From Iodidimonas nitroreducens (lineage in GTDB: Bacteria > Pseudomonadota > Alphaproteobacteria > Sphingomonadales > Rhodothalassiaceae), in NCBI GenBank assembly GCA_000710935.1, contig BAYV01000011.1, forward strand, positions 62,001-126,000: a stretch of DNA of 64,000 bases, given 5' to 3'. Each line of letters starts with the position of its first letter. The first letter of the stretch is position 1. This document shows, piece after piece, positions 2,802 through 34,180 of this stretch. Position numbers and translations under genes: made by a program. The notes beneath the pieces were generated by a model that saw only the letters and a program-made list of their open reading frames with translations, was not told the DNA's origin and made no database searches.

Positions 2802-4047
2802 TTATGAAGCGCTGGATGCCAGAGGCAAAAGCCGGAAGGGCATCATCACCGCCGATAGCCCCCGGCAGGCGCGGCTTGATCTGCGTGCCAGAAAGCTGAT
2901 GCCGGTGGCCCTTGGTCTGGCCCAAGGGGGCATGGGCAGCGCCGGGCAGGGGGCAGAGGCCGAAAGCACGGCCAAGAGCAGGATGAGAAACAAGATGGGG
3001 CCAAAGGGCTCCCTGAATCAGAAGCAATTAAGCCTTGTGACCCGCCAATTGGCAACCCTGCTCGATGCCGGTGCGCCGGTGGATGAAGCCCTGCAATCCA
3101 TTGCTATGCAGGCCGATCATCGGGCGGTGCGGCGGATTTTGCTGGCGGTGCGGGCCGATGTGATGGAGGGCCGCCGCTTATCGCAGGCGATGGCCCGGCA
3201 TCCCGGCAGTTTCAATCCGCTTTATCGGGCTTTGGTCGATGCCGGGGAAACATCGGGGGCTTTGGGCACGGTTTTGCTCAGGCTTTCGGTGCATCTTGAA
3301 AAATCCCGGGCGATGCGCACCAAAATCGTCACCGCCCTGATCTATCCCATCATGCTCGCGATCACGGCGGTGGTTGTGATCATCGCCCTGATGACCTTTG
3401 TGGTGCCAAAGGTTGTGGATCAATTCGACCATCTGGGCCAAAGCCTGCCAGCCCTTACGCTTTTCATGATCAGCCTGTCGGATATCATCCGGGATCATGG
3501 GCTTATGATTTTGCTTGGTCTTGGCGGGGTTGGGGGGGCGGTGCGCCTATCCTTGCGCCGGGAAGCCGTGGCGCGCCGGGTGAGCATCTGGCTTTTGGCG
3601 ATGCCCATATTGGGGCGGCTGATCCGCGCCGTGGAAGGGGCGCGCTTGGCCCGCACCTTGGCCACCCTGGTGGCTTCGGGGGTGCCGGTGGTGGAATCCC
3701 TTGAAAGTGCGCGGCCGGTTTTGCGGTCGATGCCATTGCAGGACGCTTTGGGGCAGGTAATCACGCAGGTGCGCGAGGGCAGCGCTTTGGCGCAGGCGCT
3801 GCGGCGGCTGGCGGTTTTCCCGCCTTTGATCGTTTATATGTCGGCGGTGGGGGAGCGTTCGGGGCAATTGCCGCAGATGCTGGAAAAGGCGGCGGATTAT
3901 CTGGAAAGCGAATTTGAACAGGCAACCCAGATCACGCTGGGCCTTTTGGAACCGGCGATCATTATCATCATGGGGGCGATGGTTGCGCTGATCGTGCTGT
4001 CGATCCTGCTGCCGATTTTGCAATTAAACAGTTTAAGCCTGTTATAA
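2788..4047 (+). CDS. gspF: Type II secretion inner-membrane platform protein GspF
   Basis: Polytopic inner-membrane platform protein that couples GspE to pseudopilus assembly. I chose the ATG at 2788 (MPAFDYEALDARGK) because the family begins with this M-x-x-F-x-Y-x-A-x-D/N text and an AAAGGA ribosome site lies before it; a longer reading frame from 2716 would run through gspE. The protein of about 419 residues shows the duplicated T2SSF domain (about residues 70-190 and 270-395) and three hydrophobic segments, the last being AIIIIMGAMVALIVLSILLPIL at the C terminus. It is followed after 10 bp by gspG. Confidence 0.96.
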   Translation: MPAFDYEALDARGKSRKGIITADSPRQARLDLRARKLMPVALGLAQGGMGSAGQGAEAESTAKSRMRNKMGPKGSLNQKQLSLVTRQLATLLDAGAPVDEALQSIAMQADHRAVRRILLAVRADVMEGRRLSQAMARHPGSFNPLYRALVDAGETSGALGTVLLRLSVHLEKSRAMRTKIVTALIYPIMLAITAVVVIIALMTFVVPKVVDQFDHLGQSLPALTLFMISLSDIIRDHGLMILLGLGGVGGAVRLSLRREAVARRVSIWLLAMPILGRLIRAVEGARLARTLATLVASGVPVVESLESARPVLRSMPLQDALGQVITQVREGSALAQALRRLAVFPPLIVYMSAVGERSGQLPQMLEKAADYLESEFEQATQITLGLLEPAIIIIMGAMVALIVLSILLPILQLNSLSLL

Positions 4048-4057
4048 GGAGATGACC

Positions 4058-4513
4058 ATGACCGCTCATGCTGCACAGTCCCGCCATCCGCGTGCGGATC
4101 ATCAGGCGGGCTTCACCCTTGTCGAACTGATGGTGGTGATCGTGATCATCGGCCTTTTGGCAACGGTGGTGGTGATCAATGTTTTGCCAAGCCAGGATCG
4201 GGCGATGGTGGATAAGGCGCGCACGGATATCGCCACCCTTGAGCAGGCGATTGAAATGTACCGATTGGATAATCTCGCCTACCCCAGCACGGAACAGGGG
4301 CTGGAAGCCCTGCTCAGCGCCCCCGGGGGGCTAAATCGCCCGGAACGCTATCGCACCGGCGGCTATATCAAACGCCTGCCGGCCGATCCCTGGGGGAATG
4401 CCTATCTGTATCTTTATCCCGGGGAGCGATCCACATTCGACGTGTTTTCCCATGGTGCCGATGGTCGGCCGGGCGGCGAGGGGCAGAATGCGGATCTGGG
4501 CAACTGGAATTGA
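4058..4513 (+). CDS. gspG: Major pseudopilin GspG
   Basis: Major pseudopilin, the main subunit of the periplasmic type II secretion pseudopilus. The prepilin site is plain: a short basic leader ending in G, then FTLVELMVVIVIIGLLATVVV, the N-methylated hydrophobic helix. The C-terminal part keeps the GspG features DNLAYPSTEQGLEAL and ADPWGNAYLY and the calcium-loop text FSHGADGRPGGEG. AAGGAG at 4046-4051 ends directly at the upstream ATG 4052 but is six bases from ATG 4058, so I prefer 4058 (151 residues). A prepilin peptidase gene (gspO/pilD) is not in the window. Confidence 0.95.
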   Translation: MTAHAAQSRHPRADHQAGFTLVELMVVIVIIGLLATVVVINVLPSQDRAMVDKARTDIATLEQAIEMYRLDNLAYPSTEQGLEALLSAPGGLNRPERYRTGGYIKRLPADPWGNAYLYLYPGERSTFDVFSHGADGRPGGEGQNADLGNWN

Positions 4514-4516
4514 GCC

Positions 4517-5035
4517 ATGGCCGATTGTCGCCCCTTTGGCCCGCAATGCGGCCTCAGCCTGATTGAATTGATGCTGGTCCTTTTCGTGGTGGGATTGTCA
4601 TCGGTCGTGGTCGTGTTCAGCCTTCCCCCCGCCACCCCCGATGTGGAGAAGAATGCGCAGGCTTTGACCCGCTCCCTGGAGATGGCCGGGCAGATGGCGA
4701 TTTTAGGCGGGCAAAGCATCGGCATTTTGATCGATCCCGATGGCTATGGTTTTTATCGCCGCCACGAAGGCCGCTGGCAGGCTTTTGAAAGCCGATCTTT
4801 GGGCGGCGGAGCGCATCGCCCCTGGCCCCATAAACAGGCGGAGGATGTCACCCTTTCCATTGAACGCAATGGCCGGCCCCTTGCCCTTGATAGCCGGGAA
4901 CCGCAGATTTTTTTCGATAGCACCGGGCAGGCGAGCCAGGCCCGGATCATGCTGGCGAGCCAAAATATGCAGGCAGAGATCGGGATCGAGGCCAATGGCC
5001 ATATCGCCCTTGATCTGCAAAGGCGCAATCCATGA
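4517..5035 (+). CDS. gspH: Minor pseudopilin GspH
   Basis: Minor pseudopilin of 172 residues. A short leader (ending CG) precedes LSLIELMLVLFVVGLSSVVVVF, the prepilin helix with the conserved Glu at +5. The remainder is the GspH-type globular domain; GYGFYRRHEGRW and the later IFFDSTGQAS resemble the family. It lies three bases after gspG and overlaps gspI by four bases (ATGA), as expected for the G-H-I-J-K block. Assignment as H rests on position and on the length. Confidence 0.9.
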   Translation: MADCRPFGPQCGLSLIELMLVLFVVGLSSVVVVFSLPPATPDVEKNAQALTRSLEMAGQMAILGGQSIGILIDPDGYGFYRRHEGRWQAFESRSLGGGAHRPWPHKQAEDVTLSIERNGRPLALDSREPQIFFDSTGQASQARIMLASQNMQAEIGIEANGHIALDLQRRNP

Positions 5036-5433
5036 ACGGGAAAGGCGGCATGGCGGGCTTCACCCTGATCGAGGTGATGGTGGCTTTGGGGGTTTTTGCC
5101 CTTGCGGTGCTGGCGCTTTTATCGGCGCAAACCCAAAGCCTCGTTACATCCGGGGGGGTGCGGGATCGGGCTTTGGCCCAGATCGTGGCGGAAAATCAGA
5201 TGGTTTTATGGATGAGCCAGCCGCAATTATCCGGCCCGGGGATTGATCAGGGCCGGATCGAGGAAGCCGGGATGTTGTGGATCTGGACCGGGCGGATCAT
5301 CGCCACCGCCGATCCTGCCATCAGCCGGATCGAGATCGATGTGCGGCGCGTTGAGGAAAGCAGGGTCGCCCCGGATCAGGGCAGCGGGGATGTTCTGGCC
5401 AGCCTCACGGCATTTCGCAGGGCAAGCCCATGA
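5032..5433 (+). CDS. gspI: Minor pseudopilin GspI
   Basis: Minor pseudopilin of 133 residues, part of the GspI-J-K tip complex of the pseudopilus. The leader MNGKGGMAG is followed by FTLIEVMVALGVFALAVLALL, then TQSLVTSGGVRDRALAQIVAENQM, the text typical of GspI (A-x-x-A-x-N). It is short, as the family is. Start and stop overlap both neighbours by ATGA, implying coupled translation. Confidence 0.92.
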   Translation: MNGKGGMAGFTLIEVMVALGVFALAVLALLSAQTQSLVTSGGVRDRALAQIVAENQMVLWMSQPQLSGPGIDQGRIEEAGMLWIWTGRIIATADPAISRIEIDVRRVEESRVAPDQGSGDVLASLTAFRRASP

Positions 5434-9682: not shown

Positions 9683-10248
9683 TGATTATGTGCCATTATA
9701 TTGTTGGTCTTATGTTGCGGCTGGGGCGGGTGGTGTTTTTGTTGCTGGGGGCGGGGCTTTTATTGGCCGCCTGCACAACGGGTTCGCCATCCGCGCCTTT
9801 ATCCCCCAGAGCATCAAACCCGGCAGCGTCTATCTGGGATGATGAGGGCCTGCACAGAATCGGGCGGCTGCCCTCCCAAGACCTGCCGGCGGGCACCTGC
9901 GGGCTGTTTCTCTTTTCCAAAACCCCCGAACCGGCGCTGGTTTTTTATGAAAATTCCGCATCCGCCGCAGCCTTGATGCGCATCGATGGGGCGCTGATGA
10001 CAATCCCCCGGATTGCGGCCGAGGGGGATGTGGAAGCCGGATATTTTACCCGTCAGATTTTTGCCACGGCGGATGGCGCTTTGCGGCTTCAACTGAGCTT
10101 TGAAACTGAGATCAGCGAGCAGATCATCGGTGGTGCGCTGGTCCCTAAAGGCACGCTGCGCCTGAGCGGCCTCGATGGCTGGGACCAGATGCGGCCGGTG
10201 GGCGGGTTGATCGCTTGCCGACAGGCGGATGCGCCTGCTAAGAACTGA
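9682..10248 (+). CDS. Putative lipoprotein at the end of the gsp operon
   Basis: A 188-residue exported protein with a lipobox, LLLAAC, after a long hydrophobic stretch (about residues 17-33), so it is probably lipid-modified and sorted to a membrane. I do not recognise its family. It overlaps the gspN stop codon by one base, so it is co-translated with the secretion genes. Type II secretins usually need a small outer-membrane lipoprotein pilotin to reach the outer membrane, and this protein is a positional candidate; that is inference only. Two cysteines (GTCGLFLF and IACRQ) remain in the mature part and could form a disulfide. Confidence 0.75.
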   Translation: MIMCHYIVGLMLRLGRVVFLLLGAGLLLAACTTGSPSAPLSPRASNPAASIWDDEGLHRIGRLPSQDLPAGTCGLFLFSKTPEPALVFYENSASAAALMRIDGALMTIPRIAAEGDVEAGYFTRQIFATADGALRLQLSFETEISEQIIGGALVPKGTLRLSGLDGWDQMRPVGGLIACRQADAPAKN

Positions 10249-10303
10249 AGCCATGCATGAAAGGCGGTTGTCTTTCAATGAAAGTGAATAATGCAAGGAT
10301 TTT

Positions 10304-10858
10304 ATGATGCGCCTCAAAATGGGATTCGCCCTTCTTTTTTGCCTGTTTGCGATGCCATTGGCGGCGCAGGATCTGGAAACATCATCGGCAACGCGGTTCA
10401 TTGAAAGCCTGCCAGAGGTGATCCGTTTGGGTGAAGATTTACAGGAAAGCGGCTTGGCTGAAGGTTTTCAAAATGCCCTGAAGCCCAGCGCCGAGCATGG
10501 CTTTTCCCCCTATCAGCGGGGCACGGATTGGATGAAGACGGCCGCCCCCGAAAGCTACCAGAAAATGAAGGATGTGGCCGCCGATCATGGTTTTTCCGAT
10601 GTGGATGAATGGGCCAAAGTTGGCGATCAGGTGATGGGCGCTTTCATGGCCATGGAAATGCAAAATATTCCCGATGAAAGCCGGGCCATGGCCGAACAGA
10701 TGACCCCGGACATGCTGGCGCAGATGCCCCAAGCGGTGCGCGAACAGATCGAAGGCATGAAGATCATGCTGGCAGCGATCAAGGATGTCCCGGAACAAAA
10801 TATCGAAACGGTGCGGCCCTTAGTGCCGGATCTGAAGGCGGTTCTGGGCGGGCAATAA
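10304..10858 (+). CDS. Small exported protein of unknown function
   Basis: A 184-residue protein with a clear signal peptide (MMRLKMGFALLFCLFAMPLAAQD, cleavage likely after AAQ). The mature part is alpha-helical and rich in Met, Glu and Asp, with FSDVDEWAKVGDQVMGAFMAMEMQ and a run of MAEQMTPDMLAQMPQAVREQIEGMK. I do not recognise a named family. An AAGGA site at 10295-10299 precedes the ATG. It stands alone: a short spacer separates it from the gsp operon and a hairpin terminator follows, so it is probably its own transcription unit. Confidence 0.75.
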   Translation: MMRLKMGFALLFCLFAMPLAAQDLETSSATRFIESLPEVIRLGEDLQESGLAEGFQNALKPSAEHGFSPYQRGTDWMKTAAPESYQKMKDVAADHGFSDVDEWAKVGDQVMGAFMAMEMQNIPDESRAMAEQMTPDMLAQMPQAVREQIEGMKIMLAAIKDVPEQNIETVRPLVPDLKAVLGGQ

Positions 10859-28005: not shown

Positions 28006-29013
28006 ATGAAAAGACAATCGATTCTGGCGATCCTGACCACTTGGCTGCTTCTGGCTTTCGGGAGCACCGCCATGGCCATGCCCTGCATGATTTTTGTGCA
28101 TGGAAAACAAACCGATACGGGAAGTTTTACCAATTGGACCCAGGCCCGGGATTATTGGCGTTCGGGGGGGTCGGATTTCATCGGTATTTCGACCAAGAAT
28201 TTCAATGCCTCGCATTATGTGGTGGGCTATAATGGCACCCGGCCCTTTTGGGATTCTCTGGCGGCGGGTGAGGTTGCGGCTGAAATTATCAATGCAACCA
28301 ATGGCGGAGCCGATGGCGGCGGCAATCGCTGTGCCACAAGCTGGGCGGCGGGCGGCAATTTCTGGATCATCGCGCACAGCATGGGCGGCACGGTGATGGA
28401 TTTCATTCTGGGCAATGCCAATAGCAGCACCCCCAATTTCAATCTCAATGGCGCCTATGATGTGGTGGCTCAGCGCACCAGCCTCGTGGTGTCGGTTGGC
28501 GGGGCCCATCGCGGTTCTCAAGGGGCGGATGCGGTTTGCGGCGATGCGGCGTTATTGTGTAATTTCATTGCCGGTTTCATTCAGGATTGTGATGATGCCA
28601 CCTTCTGGCTGCGCAGTTCCGATGATGTGCAGGTACGGACATTTTCCAATGCGCCGGCCCGCAATGTCTATTTGATTGGCGGTTTTGAAGCCATTTTCGG
28701 GGCCAGCGCCTGTTTATCGGGCGAAGATGATGGGGTGGTGCAATATGCCTCGATCTTTGCCTGTGGGGGCAGTGCCACCGCCAGCTATAATAACAGCAAT
28801 GTCTGCAATAATGGCTTCAAGCAGGAAGCATCGGGCTTTTTCAATCTCGATTCCGCCCATGAAAATCATAATGATGAGCGGAATGCGGTTGATTCCGATG
28901 AGCGCCGTCAGGTCCCGGATGGTTTCTGGACCTGCGGTGGCGCAAGCTGTGCGCCCAATACCCGGGTGCAAACAGGCATGACGACGGCCCGTTTCATCAG
29001 TACCCTTTATTGA
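28006..29013 (+). CDS. Secreted lipase-like alpha/beta-hydrolase
   Basis: A 335-residue exported alpha/beta-hydrolase. The signal peptide (about residues 1-25, ending in STAMAM) follows AGGAG eight bases before ATG 28006. CMIFVHGK gives the oxyanion HG, AHSMGGTVMDF the nucleophile elbow, SGEDDGVVQYAS a probable acid residue and DSAHENHNDERN the probable catalytic His. There are many cysteines, with paired CGDAALLC, IQDC and TCGGASC, fitting a disulfide-stabilised extracellular enzyme. It could be a substrate of the type II secretion system encoded at the start of the window. Exact lipid or ester substrate cannot be read. Confidence 0.82.
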   Translation: MKRQSILAILTTWLLLAFGSTAMAMPCMIFVHGKQTDTGSFTNWTQARDYWRSGGSDFIGISTKNFNASHYVVGYNGTRPFWDSLAAGEVAAEIINATNGGADGGGNRCATSWAAGGNFWIIAHSMGGTVMDFILGNANSSTPNFNLNGAYDVVAQRTSLVVSVGGAHRGSQGADAVCGDAALLCNFIAGFIQDCDDATFWLRSSDDVQVRTFSNAPARNVYLIGGFEAIFGASACLSGEDDGVVQYASIFACGGSATASYNNSNVCNNGFKQEASGFFNLDSAHENHNDERNAVDSDERRQVPDGFWTCGGASCAPNTRVQTGMTTARFISTLY

Positions 29014-29035
29014 TATGTACAAAGGATCAAGGATC

Positions 29036-30124
29036 ATGAAAAGACTGTTGTCTTCGATTACGCCGAAGATTGTGGGCGCGATCATGGCCGGATCGGTGCT
29101 GATGGGGTCGTCATCGGCCCGCGCGCAAGGGTCCGCCGAAACCATCCCCGATCTGGCGGCCCATGCGGCGGCCAGCTATCGCCAGCAGGCCCGCTTTCCA
29201 GCCTGGTCGCAGCCGGTGGCGCGCGGAGCGGTGGACCCGGTGCTTGCCGAACGCATCCCAACCCGCCAGATCCTGCCGAGCGAAAGCGGCATGGGCTTAA
29301 GTGTTTGGCCCGATGATATGCGCTTTGAATCCGGGGATGAGGCCCGGCTTTATGCGCGCCTGGAAAGCACGGGCAAAAATGATGAGGATCTGCTCAGCAT
29401 TCCCAATGCTGATGGGGCCACAGGGCCATGGCAGATCAGCGCTGTTGTCACCGGCCAGCTTTCCGGGCCGCTGGGCACGATCAGCTATCAAGATGATGGC
29501 CGCAATGGCGATGAGCAGGCGGGCGATGGCATTTATACCGCCCGCTTCACCTTGCCCGAAGCCTTTGATCCCTTGCCGGGCTATGCTGAAAATATTGCCG
29601 TGGTCGTCACCGCCAACAATGGCAAGGGCGAGGAATATAAAGGCATCACCGGCTTTTTATACAGCCATCCCGCGGCCCGCCTCACCGGCCAATATGTTGA
29701 AAAGCTGGTGGATGGCGATCTGGTGATCAGTGCCGAGATCGAGGCCACCACAAAGGGCCGCTTTCATCTTTCGGGAACCATGCACAGCCTGCGCGGGGTT
29801 CCTTTGGTCACAGCCCAAAGCGCGGAAAATCTCGATGCCGGCACCCATTGGATCGATCTTCGTTTTTATGGATTGGCATTGAGCGAGGCCGGGGCGAAAG
29901 GGCCCTTGACCCTTGGCAGTGTCACCCTTGCCAGCATCAAGGGGCTGCCCAATGCTTTGGGCCCGGTTTTGCATGATGTATATCGCACCATGCCTTTCGT
30001 GCCCGAGCAATTCCACAGCCGTTCCTTTGATCGGCCGGATCTGATGGAACAGGCACGGCGGCTGGATGTGGGCCGGATCGATCTCGATCATCAGCGCGGC
30101 GATAAAAAACCGCCTCGCAATTAA
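29036..30124 (+). CDS. Exported partner protein of the lipase-like enzyme, unknown function
   Basis: A 362-residue protein with a signal peptide (KRLLSSITPKIVGAIMAGSVLMGSSSARAQ). The middle contains YQDDGRNGDEQAGDGIYTARFTLPE, an Ig-like 'D-x-G-x-x-GD-x-x-x-GDGIYTA' motif seen in choice-of-anchor type beta-sandwich modules. The rest is predicted beta-rich; I do not recognise a catalytic family. It follows the lipase gene by 22 bp with AAAGGA before ATG 29036, so the two form an operon. It might assist folding, bind substrate or act as a surface partner of the lipase; this is inference. Confidence 0.7.
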   Translation: MKRLLSSITPKIVGAIMAGSVLMGSSSARAQGSAETIPDLAAHAAASYRQQARFPAWSQPVARGAVDPVLAERIPTRQILPSESGMGLSVWPDDMRFESGDEARLYARLESTGKNDEDLLSIPNADGATGPWQISAVVTGQLSGPLGTISYQDDGRNGDEQAGDGIYTARFTLPEAFDPLPGYAENIAVVVTANNGKGEEYKGITGFLYSHPAARLTGQYVEKLVDGDLVISAEIEATTKGRFHLSGTMHSLRGVPLVTAQSAENLDAGTHWIDLRFYGLALSEAGAKGPLTLGSVTLASIKGLPNALGPVLHDVYRTMPFVPEQFHSRSFDRPDLMEQARRLDVGRIDLDHQRGDKKPPRN

Positions 30125-30447
30125 AGCCTTTTAAGCGGGGCTTACTATAGGGGCCGGTGCCGGATCAGGGCATCGGCTCAATTTTTATGAGGCAAGGAGA
30201 TGCGCTGCTAGTGTCCATTGTGTGGATTTAAGCGATTGTCTGTGATGGGACGATCCGAAAGGGGAAAGGCTCCGGGTTACATAAATTGATAAGGGACTAA
30301 TTTTGAATTATAACTCTTTTAGGTTGCATATTTTTCTTATTTGTATAAATAAGTCGTATAATTAGGACTTCTTCAAAAAATTTTTGAGATTAACAGGTTA
30401 ATCAAGACGCATGTGATTGAGCAGGTATCCCTTATGAAGGCTGGAGA
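30125..30447. other. Intergenic region at the left edge of the DUF3800 island
   Basis: About 320 bp without a gene. It contains the first copy of the 26-bp terminator repeat (30152-30177) and then, from about 30290, AT-rich sequence unlike the surrounding genes, including the inverted repeat CTTATTTGTATAAATAAG at about 30334-30351. This AT-rich part is the probable promoter region of the DUF3800 gene. Confidence 0.55.
30152..30177. repeat. 26-bp direct repeat, copy 1 (also a terminator hairpin)
   Basis: A 26-bp sequence identical to 31808-31833. Within it GCCGGTGCC and GGCATCGGC pair as a nine-pair stem with one G-T pair and a seven-base loop, followed by TCAATTTTTA, so it also serves as the terminator of the lipase-partner operon. 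The two copies bracket the DUF3800 gene pair exactly, 1656 bp apart. Confidence 0.85.
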
Positions 30448-31167
30448 ATGACTGAAGAGCGATTGTTCAATGTTTATTGTGACGAGAGCTGTCATCTTGA
30501 GCATGATGGTTCACCAGTAATGGCTTGGGGTGCCATCTATTGCCCTGAAGCTGCGAGCCATATCATTTCCCTAGCTGTGCGGAAGCTGAAGTCCGAGCAC
30601 GGCCTTGCACCTGATTTTGAGGCCAAATGGACAAAGATTTCCCCAGCTAAAGTGGAATTCTACTTAGCATTATTAGATTTATTCCTGGCCGATGAACGAA
30701 TGCGTTTTCGTGGCATCCTCGTCCCTGATAAGGGTCTTCTGGATCACGCGCGCTTCGGTCAGTCACACGATGACTGGTATTATAAAATGTATTTTACAAT
30801 GCTGCGCCCGATCTTTTGCGCACCGCATCACTATCGCATTTACCTCGATATAAAAGACACGCGTGGTGGGCCAAGAACTCGCAGGCTTCACGAGGTACTA
30901 GCCAACAGCCTTTATGATTTCAACCAAGAATGCGTCGAGCGGGTTCAGCAGGTCCGATCACATGAGAGCGAACAGTTACAATTAGCCGATATTTTGATCG
31001 GCGCGCTCACATACGCGAACCGTGGCCTCAGAACCAGTCCCGCAAAGACAGCGATTGCAGCGCGGCTATGTGAGCGCCTTGGGCAGAACATACTTACCCG
31101 CACATCCTCTTTTTCTGCAACGAAATTTAACATTCTAGTATGGCGGGCACGGGATCTAACTGGATGA
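30448..31167 (+). CDS. DUF3800-domain protein
   Basis: A 239-residue protein of the DUF3800 type, a family with an RNase H-like arrangement of acidic residues often found in mobile or defence-related islands. The opening VYCDESCHLEHDGSPVMAWGAIYCP has the first Asp-Glu; YRIYLDIKDTRGGPRTRRLHEVL the next acidic centre; and SEQLQLADILIGALTYANRG the final Asp in the conserved Q-L-A-D motif. A nuclease role is suggested for the family but not proven. The region is AT-richer than its neighbours. It overlaps the next gene by four bases, and the pair lies between 26-bp repeats. Confidence 0.82.
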   Translation: MTEERLFNVYCDESCHLEHDGSPVMAWGAIYCPEAASHIISLAVRKLKSEHGLAPDFEAKWTKISPAKVEFYLALLDLFLADERMRFRGILVPDKGLLDHARFGQSHDDWYYKMYFTMLRPIFCAPHHYRIYLDIKDTRGGPRTRRLHEVLANSLYDFNQECVERVQQVRSHESEQLQLADILIGALTYANRGLRTSPAKTAIAARLCERLGQNILTRTSSFSATKFNILVWRARDLTG

Positions 31168-31649
31168 CGCCGCCCGATCTGATAATGTTCGGCGGAGAAT
31201 GGGCCGTCTATGAAGCTGAACTCTACCGCATCTTCAAAGAAGAAATCGCGGGGGGTAGTTTGATGTTTTGCCATTCTCCCGTTAAATGCCGCCGATTGCC
31301 AGAAGCAGCAGGTCGCTGGGCTTCATTCTGGCATCTTGTGCAGGAGGGCCGCGTGGAGGATGATCGCACGCCCGATCTACGCCGCTGTGAGCGAATTCGC
31401 TGGGTGCGCTGGGTAATTGAAAATGCGGCAGATCATTCCGAGATTGACATATGGCAGAACACTCGCAATGGAAGAGTGAGCAGGCTACTTTGGTTTCGTG
31501 AGGAATATCTGGTCGTTCTGGCAGAGCGTACAGGCTATTGGTTGCTTTTGACAGCTTACTGCACCGACAAAAGTGGTCGGATCAAGCAGCTTAGGAAGGA
31601 GCGTGACGTTTTTCTTCGCGCTCATATGACGGGAGTCCAAAACGACTGA
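31164..31649 (+). CDS. Unknown basic protein paired with the DUF3800 gene
   Basis: A 161-residue protein starting at ATG 31164, which overlaps the DUF3800 stop codon (ATGA). It is rich in Arg and Trp. The C-terminal half reads IDIWQNTRNGRVSRLLWFREEYLVVLAERTGYWLLLTAYCTDK...RKERD, a beta-rich pattern that reminds me of small phage- or toxin-related RNase-like modules, but I cannot assign a family. Tight coupling to DUF3800 suggests a two-protein unit such as toxin-antitoxin or anti-phage. A hairpin at 31651-31674 follows the stop codon. Confidence 0.65.
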   Translation: MTPPDLIMFGGEWAVYEAELYRIFKEEIAGGSLMFCHSPVKCRRLPEAAGRWASFWHLVQEGRVEDDRTPDLRRCERIRWVRWVIENAADHSEIDIWQNTRNGRVSRLLWFREEYLVVLAERTGYWLLLTAYCTDKSGRIKQLRKERDVFLRAHMTGVQND

Positions 31650-31650
31650 A

Positions 31651-31674
31651 GCCGCCCGAGTGAACTAGGGCGGC
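31651..31674 (+). terminator. Hairpin after the island gene pair
   Basis: GCCGCCC (31651-31657) pairs with GGGCGGC (31668-31674) across a ten-base loop directly after the stop codon of the second island gene. No T-run follows, so efficiency is uncertain. Confidence 0.5.
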
Positions 31675-31807
31675 CTCGAATGCTCTTCCTACTCATGGCA
31701 GGTGAGACAGATACAAAATGCGTGTATCAAGGTCGTTTGTCAAGAAAATTCAGAGAGACAAACGCAAGGCATCGAGTCAAACAGATCTTTTTGATCAAAT
31801 TGGACTT

Positions 31808-31833
31808 GGCCGGTGCCGGATCAGGGCATCGGC
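31808..31833. repeat. 26-bp direct repeat, copy 2 (also a terminator hairpin)
   Basis: Exact second copy of 30152-30177, carrying the same hairpin. It lies just beyond the end of the minus-strand SapC-like gene (31841) and can act as its terminator. The simplest history is one original terminator between convergent genes that was duplicated when the island entered. Confidence 0.85.
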
Positions 31834-31840
31834 CCCTTAT

Positions 31841-32587
31841 TTATGGCATCGAAACATGGGCGGAGACGAGATCGTCGCCCCGGCGGATTGCTAAATGAAG
31901 CAGGCGCTGAAGATGGCGCTCCGATTGGAGCATCGCAAAAATCAGCCCCAGATACTGATCGAGATTGAGGCTTTGAAGGCTTGCCCCATCAAGATCGGCC
32001 AAAGCCTCTTCATCGATGCCATAAAGCCCGGTGATCTGCGATGTGGCGCCCGTTTGATGGGTCAGTTCAATATCCTTGCGCCGGATCAGATGACAAGACA
32101 GCAGCCTTTCGATGAAGGGGATCGTTTCCTGATGATCCTTGCGCATGAACAGCAAAAGCCGCAGGGCATCATCCAGAAGGGGGCTGGGGGCCCCCCTTTC
32201 ATCATAAAGGCGCAGAGCTGAAGGCGCATCGCGCACCAGCGAGGGTGAGGCGAAATCGGCGCATATGAGTGGCGCTGCATCGTCATTTTCCCCCAAAATA
32301 AAGGGATAGCGCAGGAGATTGAGGGGGATATAAGCCGCCCCCCAGCCACCATCCCGGCAAAAAAGATTGCAGGGTTCGGATAATCCCAAAAGGGCGCTGA
32401 GGTGGAATGTGCCCGATGGTTCGCCCTTCATCAGAAAAAGGGGGAAACAGCCTGCGGCTTCCAGAATTTCCGAAAGGCCAAGGGGCGTGCTGCGCCAATT
32501 GGCGGCATGGGCAAAGCTGCGATCGGGGCGCAGGCCATAATCCCCATGTTGGGCGGGGCTGAGGGCGGTGATCATTTCATCCATCAT
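31841..32587 (-). CDS. SapC-like protein
   Basis: A 248-residue protein of the SapC family (the family named from S-layer associated genes but widespread in alphaproteobacteria beside TonB receptors and tryptophan-halogenase genes). ITALSPAQHGDYGLRPDRSFAHAANWRSTPLGLSEILEAAGCFPLFLMKGE near the N terminus and YIPLNLLRYPFIL fit the family. Its ATG overlaps the stop codon of the halogenase gene by one base, so both are one unit transcribed leftwards. The molecular role is not known; no signal peptide is visible. Confidence 0.85.
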   Translation of the reverse strand: MMDEMITALSPAQHGDYGLRPDRSFAHAANWRSTPLGLSEILEAAGCFPLFLMKGEPSGTFHLSALLGLSEPCNLFCRDGGWGAAYIPLNLLRYPFILGENDDAAPLICADFASPSLVRDAPSALRLYDERGAPSPLLDDALRLLLFMRKDHQETIPFIERLLSCHLIRRKDIELTHQTGATSQITGLYGIDEEALADLDGASLQSLNLDQYLGLIFAMLQSERHLQRLLHLAIRRGDDLVSAHVSMP

Positions 32588-34125
32588 CAGATCGCCTGAA
32601 AACCGTGGCGATGCACATGGTTGATCAGATCCCGATGGCGGGGCAGGGTGCTTTCCATCCGCCCCATAAGGCCATCCAGCATCTGTTGCCAGCGGGCGGG
32701 CGCGCCCTGGCCCCGAGGCGGATTCCTTGGGGCGGCAAAGCCCATGCCATAGAGCACATAGCGATAGCTGAGATAGGAAAAAACCTCATTTTCAGCGCCC
32801 AGATGATCGGGCAGGGGGGGCTGATCGCGCCAAAGGGCCAGCAGTTCGGCCAGATCATCGGGCCAGCTTTGGGCATCGCGGTTTGCCAGCCAGAAAGGCT
32901 CGGTGCGGCGGCTTAAGATATAATGGAGCTTCAGGAATTTCAGGATGGCGGGCCAGAAATGCGCAAAGCGCTGATTATAGCGGCGGCTGGCAATGGCCAG
33001 ATCGCCGTGATCAAGGGGCAAAAGGGCGCATAAAGCCTGGGCTGAAAGCTCGGCCAGCATCAGGGCCGAAGCTTCCAAAGGCTCGAAAAATCCGGCAGAA
33101 AGCCCGATGGCCACGCAATTTTTCTGCCACAGGCTTTGGCGATAGCCCGATTTGATCTTTAAAAGGCGGGGCGTGGCCTCGGCTTCTTTCATCCCGGCAT
33201 GTTCGAGCAGGATCTTTTGTGCTTCATCATCGGAGAGAAAATCGCTGGCATAAACATGGCCCAGCCCCCGCCGTTCCTTAAGCGCGATATCCCAGATCCA
33301 ACCGGCTTTTTGCGCTGTTGCATGGGTTTGGCAGCTTAAAGGGGCATCTGCTGTGGCATGGGGCTTTTGCACGGCAATAGCGCGATCAGCAAACAGGATG
33401 TGGTTGCAATCCCGAAAAGGCACCCCCAGCGCCGTGCCAATCAAACGGGCCGAAAAGCCGGTGCAATCGACAAAAAAATCGCCGTCCACCCGCCCGCTTT
33501 GCTGGCAGATCAGATGGCCGATGGCACCATCTTCATCCAGCCCCACATCCAATACATCATCGCGCAGATGCCTGATGCCCAGATTTGTGGTGCCATGCTG
33601 GCATAAAAGGCTGGCGAAAGCCCCGGCATCCAGATGATAGCCATAGTTGAGATGCCCCTCATAATCGGCTTGCAAAGGGGTTTTGGGGCCAAAACCGGCA
33701 GCGCATAATCGCGCCTGCACATGGTGGAAATCGGCAAAAGCCGGGCGCTGCTCTGCCCCCATCGCACACCAAAGGGCAAAGGGATCAAAGCCATGGGCAT
33801 CAAGCGGCGGGGAAAAAGGGTGATCATAATGATCATCAGCCGATCCATCCGCCCAGCCGATGAAGCGGCTGCCCTGTTTCAGCCCTGCTGTGGTGGCGCG
33901 CAGGAAATCGGTTTCCGTAAGGCCGATGCGTTTTAAGCTTTGGCGCATGGTGGGCCATGTGCCTTCGCCAACGCCGATGGTAGGGATGGAGGGGGATTCG
34001 ATCAGGGTCACCGTGCCACCCCGGCCCTGTTCGGTTTTGCAATGGCTGGCCAGCAAACAGGCGCTGAGCCATCCCGCCGTGCCGCCGCCCACGATGATGA
34101 TATTCCGGATAGGGCGCTGGGGCAT
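32587..34125 (-). CDS. Flavin-dependent tryptophan-halogenase family protein
   Basis: A 512-residue FAD protein of the tryptophan-7-halogenase family. The FAD motif NIIIVGGGTAGWLSACLLA is near the N terminus; IGVGEGTWPTM and the Lys in TAGLKQGSRFIGW correspond to the active-site lysine region, and GWIWDIALKERRGLGHVY carries the W-x-W-x-I motif of halogenases. ATG 34125 lies six bases after AAAAGG. Genes like this are common in carbohydrate and TonB loci of alphaproteobacteria and their substrates are unknown. It is coupled to the SapC-like gene. An AT-rich palindrome-like element (34181-34194) is upstream. Confidence 0.87.
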   Translation of the reverse strand: MPQRPIRNIIIVGGGTAGWLSACLLASHCKTEQGRGGTVTLIESPSIPTIGVGEGTWPTMRQSLKRIGLTETDFLRATTAGLKQGSRFIGWADGSADDHYDHPFSPPLDAHGFDPFALWCAMGAEQRPAFADFHHVQARLCAAGFGPKTPLQADYEGHLNYGYHLDAGAFASLLCQHGTTNLGIRHLRDDVLDVGLDEDGAIGHLICQQSGRVDGDFFVDCTGFSARLIGTALGVPFRDCNHILFADRAIAVQKPHATADAPLSCQTHATAQKAGWIWDIALKERRGLGHVYASDFLSDDEAQKILLEHAGMKEAEATPRLLKIKSGYRQSLWQKNCVAIGLSAGFFEPLEASALMLAELSAQALCALLPLDHGDLAIASRRYNQRFAHFWPAILKFLKLHYILSRRTEPFWLANRDAQSWPDDLAELLALWRDQPPLPDHLGAENEVFSYLSYRYVLYGMGFAAPRNPPRGQGAPARWQQMLDGLMGRMESTLPRHRDLINHVHRHGFQAI

Positions 34126-34180
34126 GATGGGCCTTTTACTGCAGAGGGACAATGGATCGGGATGCGCAAAGCAACAGAAT

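Follow-up and report, generated by a model that had tools for sequence, protein, structure and literature searches.

A conserved convergent RNA accompanies the rlfA-rlfB gene pair in a repeat-flanked island of Iodidimonas nitroreducens

A small island in the genome of Iodidimonas nitroreducens, enclosed by an exact 26-bp direct repeat, carries a gene pair of the phage P1 rlfA-rlfB family and, on the opposite strand, a conserved structured RNA that is tied to this pair. We read the unit as cargo of a defense type that carries a new RNA, and not as an element that moves itself. We give roughly even chances to the following reading: the island was acquired horizontally as an intact RlfA-RlfB-RNA module, an RNA-regulated toxin or abortive-infection system put in at a terminator by recombination, and lone copies of the RNA in phages neutralize the system in trans. 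Coordinates refer to the window, which is the whole 64,000-nucleotide stretch of DNA analyzed, and the features are collected in Table 1.

Table 1. Features of the island, in window coordinates
Feature	Position	Strand	Basis
Left 26-bp repeat copy, terminator hairpin core	30152..30177	+	Repeat search, genome search, folding
AT-rich noncoding leader (36.7% GC), presumed rlfAB promoter region	30178..30447		Composition
rlfA homolog, DUF3800 (PF12686), PDC-M04A	30448..31167	+	Homology, profile matches, predicted RNase HII-like fold
rlfB homolog, PDC-M04B, predicted weakly RelE/HigB/colicin D-like fold	31164..31649	+	Homology, profile match, structure prediction
Small structured RNA, 5' conserved hairpin and 3' terminator hairpin, convergent with rlfAB	31643..31708	-	Alignment, folding, covariance model
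Weak -10-like CATTTT, 17 nt past the TTGACA box	31715..31720	-	Alignment
TTGACA box, presumed -35 of the RNA promoter, kept by most relatives	31738..31743	-	Alignment; promoter role presumed
Right 26-bp repeat copy	31808..31833	+	Repeat search, genome search, folding

Island layout and the 26-bp repeat

The original prediction described an AT-richer two-gene unit, free of transposase and integrase genes, between convergent neighbors, and this description holds. The 1,630 bp between the repeats have a GC content of 47.9%, compared with 57.2% for the whole window; a DUF4785-type open reading frame (plus strand) lies to the left and sapC (minus strand) to the right; and no transposase or integrase was recognized in the island. 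The structured minus-strand RNA had been overlooked. The start of rlfB overlaps the stop of rlfA (ATGA), and an earlier in-frame ATG lies at 31140. The leader upstream of rlfA matches nothing in the organism's own genome, in plasmids, or in phages. An integrase remnant in these left 270 bp was rejected for lack of a significant phage match, and positions 29000 to 33000 have no plasmid DNA match.

The claim of two identical 26-bp copies was verified in position, spacing, and identity: the sequence GGCCGGTGCCGGATCAGGGCATCGGC occurs twice with no mismatch, start to start 1,656 bp apart, and is the longest exact direct repeat of the window. Further copies, at up to 3 mismatches, are absent from the 3.08-Mb genome, and shuffled sequences gave zero; with just two copies, a genome-wide terminator family is ruled out. 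The likeness of the two copies extends weakly past the repeat itself (38 nt at 89%), and two related terminators may have come together here. Folding also bore out the claim that excising the intervening segment restores a single terminator. When the outer flanks are joined over one core, they form one hairpin with a 13-bp stem at -29.5 kcal/mol; the present copies fold at -22.5 and -21.9 kcal/mol, and the inner-inner junction folds at -20.3 kcal/mol. The rebuilt terminator is thus stronger than either present copy, which supports, short of proof, an earlier state in which the two outer halves adjoined. Because the repeat is unique and the rebuilt terminator is stronger, insertion by recombination is the reading that we favor, and a recombination footprint at the 26-bp repeat is likely.

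Foreign origin and the search for an empty site

The gene pair looks foreign. RlfA matches were found in 3 of 99 other related genomes (two at 33% identity and one short fragment) and in neither of the two same-genus genomes, and its close relatives by DNA similarity come from other taxa, including Paracoccus, Sphingobium, Sphingopyxis, Beijerinckiaceae, and Roseomonas records. This similarity spans roughly positions 30434 to 31754 of the window, so the conserved module stops inside the repeats. None of 11 related rlfAB loci is flanked by a repeat longer than 13 bp (two of these loci have less than 210 bp of upstream sequence), indicating that the repeat belongs to the insertion event here and not to the module. 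The lipase-DUF4785 pair is still present in both same-genus genomes, followed there by different sequence and genes, with no SapC. Neither genome has both flanks, and no empty site with one 26-bp core was found; this result and the lack of such a repeat around related modules count against the insertion reading.

The right flank (31841 to 34152, with sapC and a large open reading frame behind it) may itself be accessory, as SapC is absent from both same-genus genomes. A SapC paralog (38%) is encoded elsewhere in the genome.

For the repeat alone, a different origin is possible, if somewhat doubtful: a target-site duplication left by a transposase, or integration at an att-like core by a recombinase supplied in trans, instead of short-homology recombination. 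The precision and uniqueness of the repeat would suit such an enzyme, and att cores commonly have a length of 26 bp. Site-specific integrative elements likewise have a short core repeated directly at their two ends, as the exact 26-bp copies are here. Such an element, however, carries its own integrase gene, and the only genes recognized in the island are rlfA and rlfB. Likewise, the terminal inverted repeats and transposase of an insertion sequence or transposon were not found, which rules out an element of that kind, and the related modules have no comparable repeat. A second island sharing the left end was sought in the organism's own genome, and none was found. Of the original proposal of a small mobile unit or recombination product, the recombination footprint stands as likely; the self-mobile element does not, as there is no mobility gene and none of the 11 relatives has the repeat. 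The accompanying idea that such a unit used the terminator hairpin as its target lacks support on the same two counts and because the genome has no further copy of the hairpin. Recombination at the terminator is the account of the repeat that we prefer. As for the DUF3800 gene, it is half of a conserved pair that was already known, and cargo is the best description of it.

The RlfA-RlfB gene pair

The two proteins are 47.7% (RlfA) and about 40% (RlfB) identical to their P1 counterparts, and homologs of the pair also occur in phage P7 (rapA-rapB) and in a Bifidobacterium phage. Both match the PADLOC profiles of a candidate defense system, PDC-M04, as adjacent proteins in the order A then B (PDC-M04A, 1.5e-85; PDC-M04B, 9.8e-53). 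The name PDC-M04 had no match in the literature searched. In five related loci (L035, L037, L040, L041, and L042), rlfAB lies directly behind type I restriction-modification genes, with a 4-bp overlap of rlfA with the end of hsdS; these neighbors were checked by Pfam on L035. In Sphingobium wenxiniae (L038, 33-5312), the pair stands in another restriction context, behind genes for an MmeI-type methylase, a helicase-like protein, and a T5orf172 protein.

Across the same five type I loci (3600-5312), hsdS consists of two variable stretches in a common conserved frame, corresponding to two target recognition domains. The I. nitroreducens genome has a type I specificity gene of its own on another contig (G000 contig C7, 24810-25886), far from the island.

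Structure prediction gave confident models for both proteins (pLDDT of 89 for RlfA and 90 for RlfB). The overall predicted fold of RlfA is clearly RNase HII-like (Foldseek E value of 2.8e-6 at a probability of 1.0; Z of 12.7 over 170 residues, rmsd of 4.8 to 1eke), in keeping with an earlier description of the DUF3800 domain as RNase H-like (PMC10910872). Four acidic residues that are invariant in 15 sequences, D12, E13, D134, and D181, form a putative active site. RlfB has no Pfam match. The top structural matches of its model are nearly all RelE, HigB, YafQ, BrnT, and colicin D, at weak scores (Z of 4 to 5.7; Foldseek E value of >0.1), and a Foldseek comparison with viral structure models returned one unnamed phage protein and nothing else. 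The invariant residues of RlfB (F63, H65, R82, R85, W105, and T138) would suit a ribonuclease. No sequence relatives were found in the PDB.

A conserved RNA convergent with rlfB

The DNA just 3' of rlfB is highly conserved, noncoding, and present in P1 too. It specifies an RNA of about 65 nt with two hairpins, on the opposite strand, that meets the end of rlfB. Hairpin 1 is nearly invariant in sequence, and the terminator hairpin varies while its pairing is kept. Across 14 sequences, 97.6% of alignment cells pair, and 7 of 18 pairs have changed on both sides. For 75 sequences, the figures are 96.7% and 14 of 18, a result that no shuffle reaches, in an alignment that was fitted to the covariance model and so leans toward it. 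In 59 of 66 distinct cases, folding is better for the minus strand, and the balance of G-U against A-C pairs, runs of T, the TTGACA box, and the orientation of neighboring tRNAs also place the RNA on this strand and not on the plus strand.

All 24 rlfB loci searched have the RNA next to them, ranging from Alphaproteobacteria through P1 to the Bifidobacterium phage, with E values of 1e-7 to 1e-21; 15 of these loci are outside the set from which the model was built, and several are close relatives of one another. A search next to two DUF3800 genes that have no rlfB did not detect it. Among 372 alphaproteobacterial genomes, the RNA occurs in all three that have rlfB, in one clear additional genome (G340, 6e-10), and in three weaker cases. 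It is unannotated in the P1 record, and none of the covariance models of Rfam 15 matches it at an E value of ≤10, a comparison that does not extend to published motifs outside Rfam. Collectively, these data establish a conserved minus-strand structure that is tied to rlfAB. The RNA is presumably transcribed, and because the TTGACA box is so close, the transcript would start at about the conserved hairpin.

The G340 copy is an orphan (L171, 191-266) with an enlarged loop and a TTGACA box of its own, and it lies right after the apparent end of a transposase gene.

The nature of the RNA bears on an unlikely alternative, in which RlfA, RlfB, and the RNA make up an RNA-guided or RNA-processing nuclease linked to restriction-modification, with no toxin and with the RNA as a cofactor that directs or activates RlfA. 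The predicted RNase HII-like fold of RlfA, the placement behind hsdS or an MmeI-type gene, and the published links of DUF3800 to noncoding RNAs and a Cas12 sub-branch (PMC10910872) are all consistent with such a nuclease. However, the RNA seems to be without a variable guide part, judging from the closeness of the TTGACA box, and restriction-modification genes do not accompany the pair in P1 or in the window. We prefer an RNA-restrained toxin.

Orphan RNAs in phages

An 18-nt pattern of the hairpin core matches 95 viral contigs, of which just 13 encode RlfA and RlfB; about 80 viral contigs, and SPbeta among named phages, have the RNA without rlfAB. The core hairpin of these orphans is conserved by virtue of the pattern search that selected them, and the second hairpin provides independent evidence: orphans also keep the covarying terminator, some of them with weak stems. 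Since plain MAFFT alignment of many orphans failed to align hairpin 1, a covariance model was used.

A tRNA or tmRNA lies within 1 kb of 32 of 82 orphan loci, with 90 tRNAs on the strand of the RNA and 1 on the opposite strand. Orphans also adjoin other structured RNAs. In related phages, a DUF3800-VIII RNA lies beside the orphan (L084, L090, L105, and L143); in one viral contig (L076), an abiF RNA and the orphan are 136 nt apart on the same strand (10230-10266 and 10402-10462); and in a phage tRNA array (L141, 445-1139), about 75 nt separate the end of a ROOL giant RNA from the orphan that follows it, again on the same strand. SPbeta, phi3T, and two Vibrio phages are named phages with the RNA, and RlfA was matched in none of them. 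In SPbeta (NC_001884.1; L176, 1823-3503), the 1.7-kb noncoding gap between yonN and yonK holds the RNA, a second copy-like stretch, and then a DUF3800-VIII RNA that is 98% identical over 63 nt to the copy in L105. This gap looks like a small-RNA array; no literature on yonN-yonK RNAs was found.

The abundance of RNA without proteins, including orphans with weak terminator stems, also enters into another improbable explanation, according to which RlfAB and its RNA serve gene control or replication in phages or plasmids and were captured here by chance, with the orphans as remnants or as regulators of the phages' own genes. In P1, rlfAB lies behind repL and the C1 operator, where its annotation suggests a possible link to lytic replication, and PHROG 16230 labels RlfB a "replication protein." Nevertheless, the pair is chromosomal and stands behind restriction-modification genes in several bacteria, rlfA and rlfB both scored as nonessential in a CRISPR interference screen of P1 (PMC10695390), and retention by orphans of the core hairpin (by search design) along with a covarying terminator fits mere remnants poorly.

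Proposed mechanism

We favor a model in which the module entered the chromosome by recombination at the terminator between convergent genes, leaving the 26-bp core duplicated, with the recombination enzyme encoded outside the island. RlfB, weakly RelE/colicin D-like in its predicted fold, would be an RNA-cleaving effector or the partner of one, and RlfA would be a nuclease, with RNA or hybrids as what it binds or processes. The RNA would keep the proteins inactive until an infecting phage disturbs it; freed RlfA and RlfB would then cause infected cells to stop growing. Where a phage has the RNA but not the proteins, that RNA may act as a decoy and neutralize the system in trans.

Toxicity, control by RNA, defense, the role of orphans as decoys, and a recombinational origin of the repeat are all inferred. 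In favor of the model as a whole are the P1 and P7 homology, the matches to PDC-M04A and PDC-M04B, and the linkage to type I or MmeI-type restriction genes in relatives. So are the RNA at every rlfB locus searched, its covariation, the predicted folds of both proteins, and the precedent of AbiF, which is reported to be neutralized by its noncoding RNA (PMC12373285), a parallel that covers the restraint and not the release by phage attack. The orphans in tRNA arrays, with their strong strand bias, and beside DUF3800-VIII or abiF RNAs also fit the model. The weak fold match of RlfB (Z of ≤5.7; Foldseek E value of >0.1) and the replication annotation behind the C1 operator in P1 count against the module reading.

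A broader and more tentative proposal is that RlfAB and its RNA represent a new kind of RNA-restrained abortive infection, and that phages of unrelated hosts (SPbeta, Vibrio phages, and phages with tRNA arrays) keep arrays that mimic the RNAs of several such systems simultaneously (the RlfAB RNA, DUF3800-VIII, and abiF) as a general RNA counterdefense. If the orphan copies in SPbeta and elsewhere do quiet such systems, then phage tRNA and small-RNA arrays would acquire a further function, that of keeping RNA-restrained suicide systems at bay. Even in the classic laboratory phage P1, the function of rlfAB is still just a guess; the conserved RNA, next to the pair at every locus examined, opens the system to direct tests and provides a concrete partner for one branch of DUF3800. 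The insertion itself shows a minimal cassette placed in a terminator between convergent genes, breaking nothing.

Comparison with known systems

Defense or toxin-antitoxin systems that combine protein with noncoding RNA are an established class; the RNA described here, and its tie to RlfAB, are new with respect to the databases and papers searched. The nearest relatives are P1 rlfA-rlfB, P7 rapA-rapB, and PDC-M04, which have the same two proteins with the same overlap and order, and P1 also has the convergent RNA. The setting differs, as the P1 pair follows repL and the C1 operator, whereas the island stands alone as a cassette, flanked by two bacterial genes and marked by a 26-bp duplication.

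The Rfam families DUF3800-I, -VIII, and -IX likewise place a small RNA by a DUF3800 gene, phages included, and DUF3800-VIII adjoins the orphans in SPbeta-like phages; nevertheless, the island RNA belongs to none of the Rfam 15 models. The proposed logic also resembles that of AbiF and its noncoding RNA (RCd22 in Clostridioides difficile), in which the RNA neutralizes a toxic defense protein by direct binding (PMC12373285), although the protein family is unrelated and the RNA is different.

Type III toxin-antitoxin systems, such as ToxIN, are alike in that an RNA restrains a ribonuclease, as proposed for the island. Phages can escape ToxIN with a copy of its RNA. In type III systems, however, the antitoxin is a tandem-repeat RNA encoded upstream on the same strand, whereas the island RNA is single, downstream, and on the opposite strand, and it accompanies two proteins.
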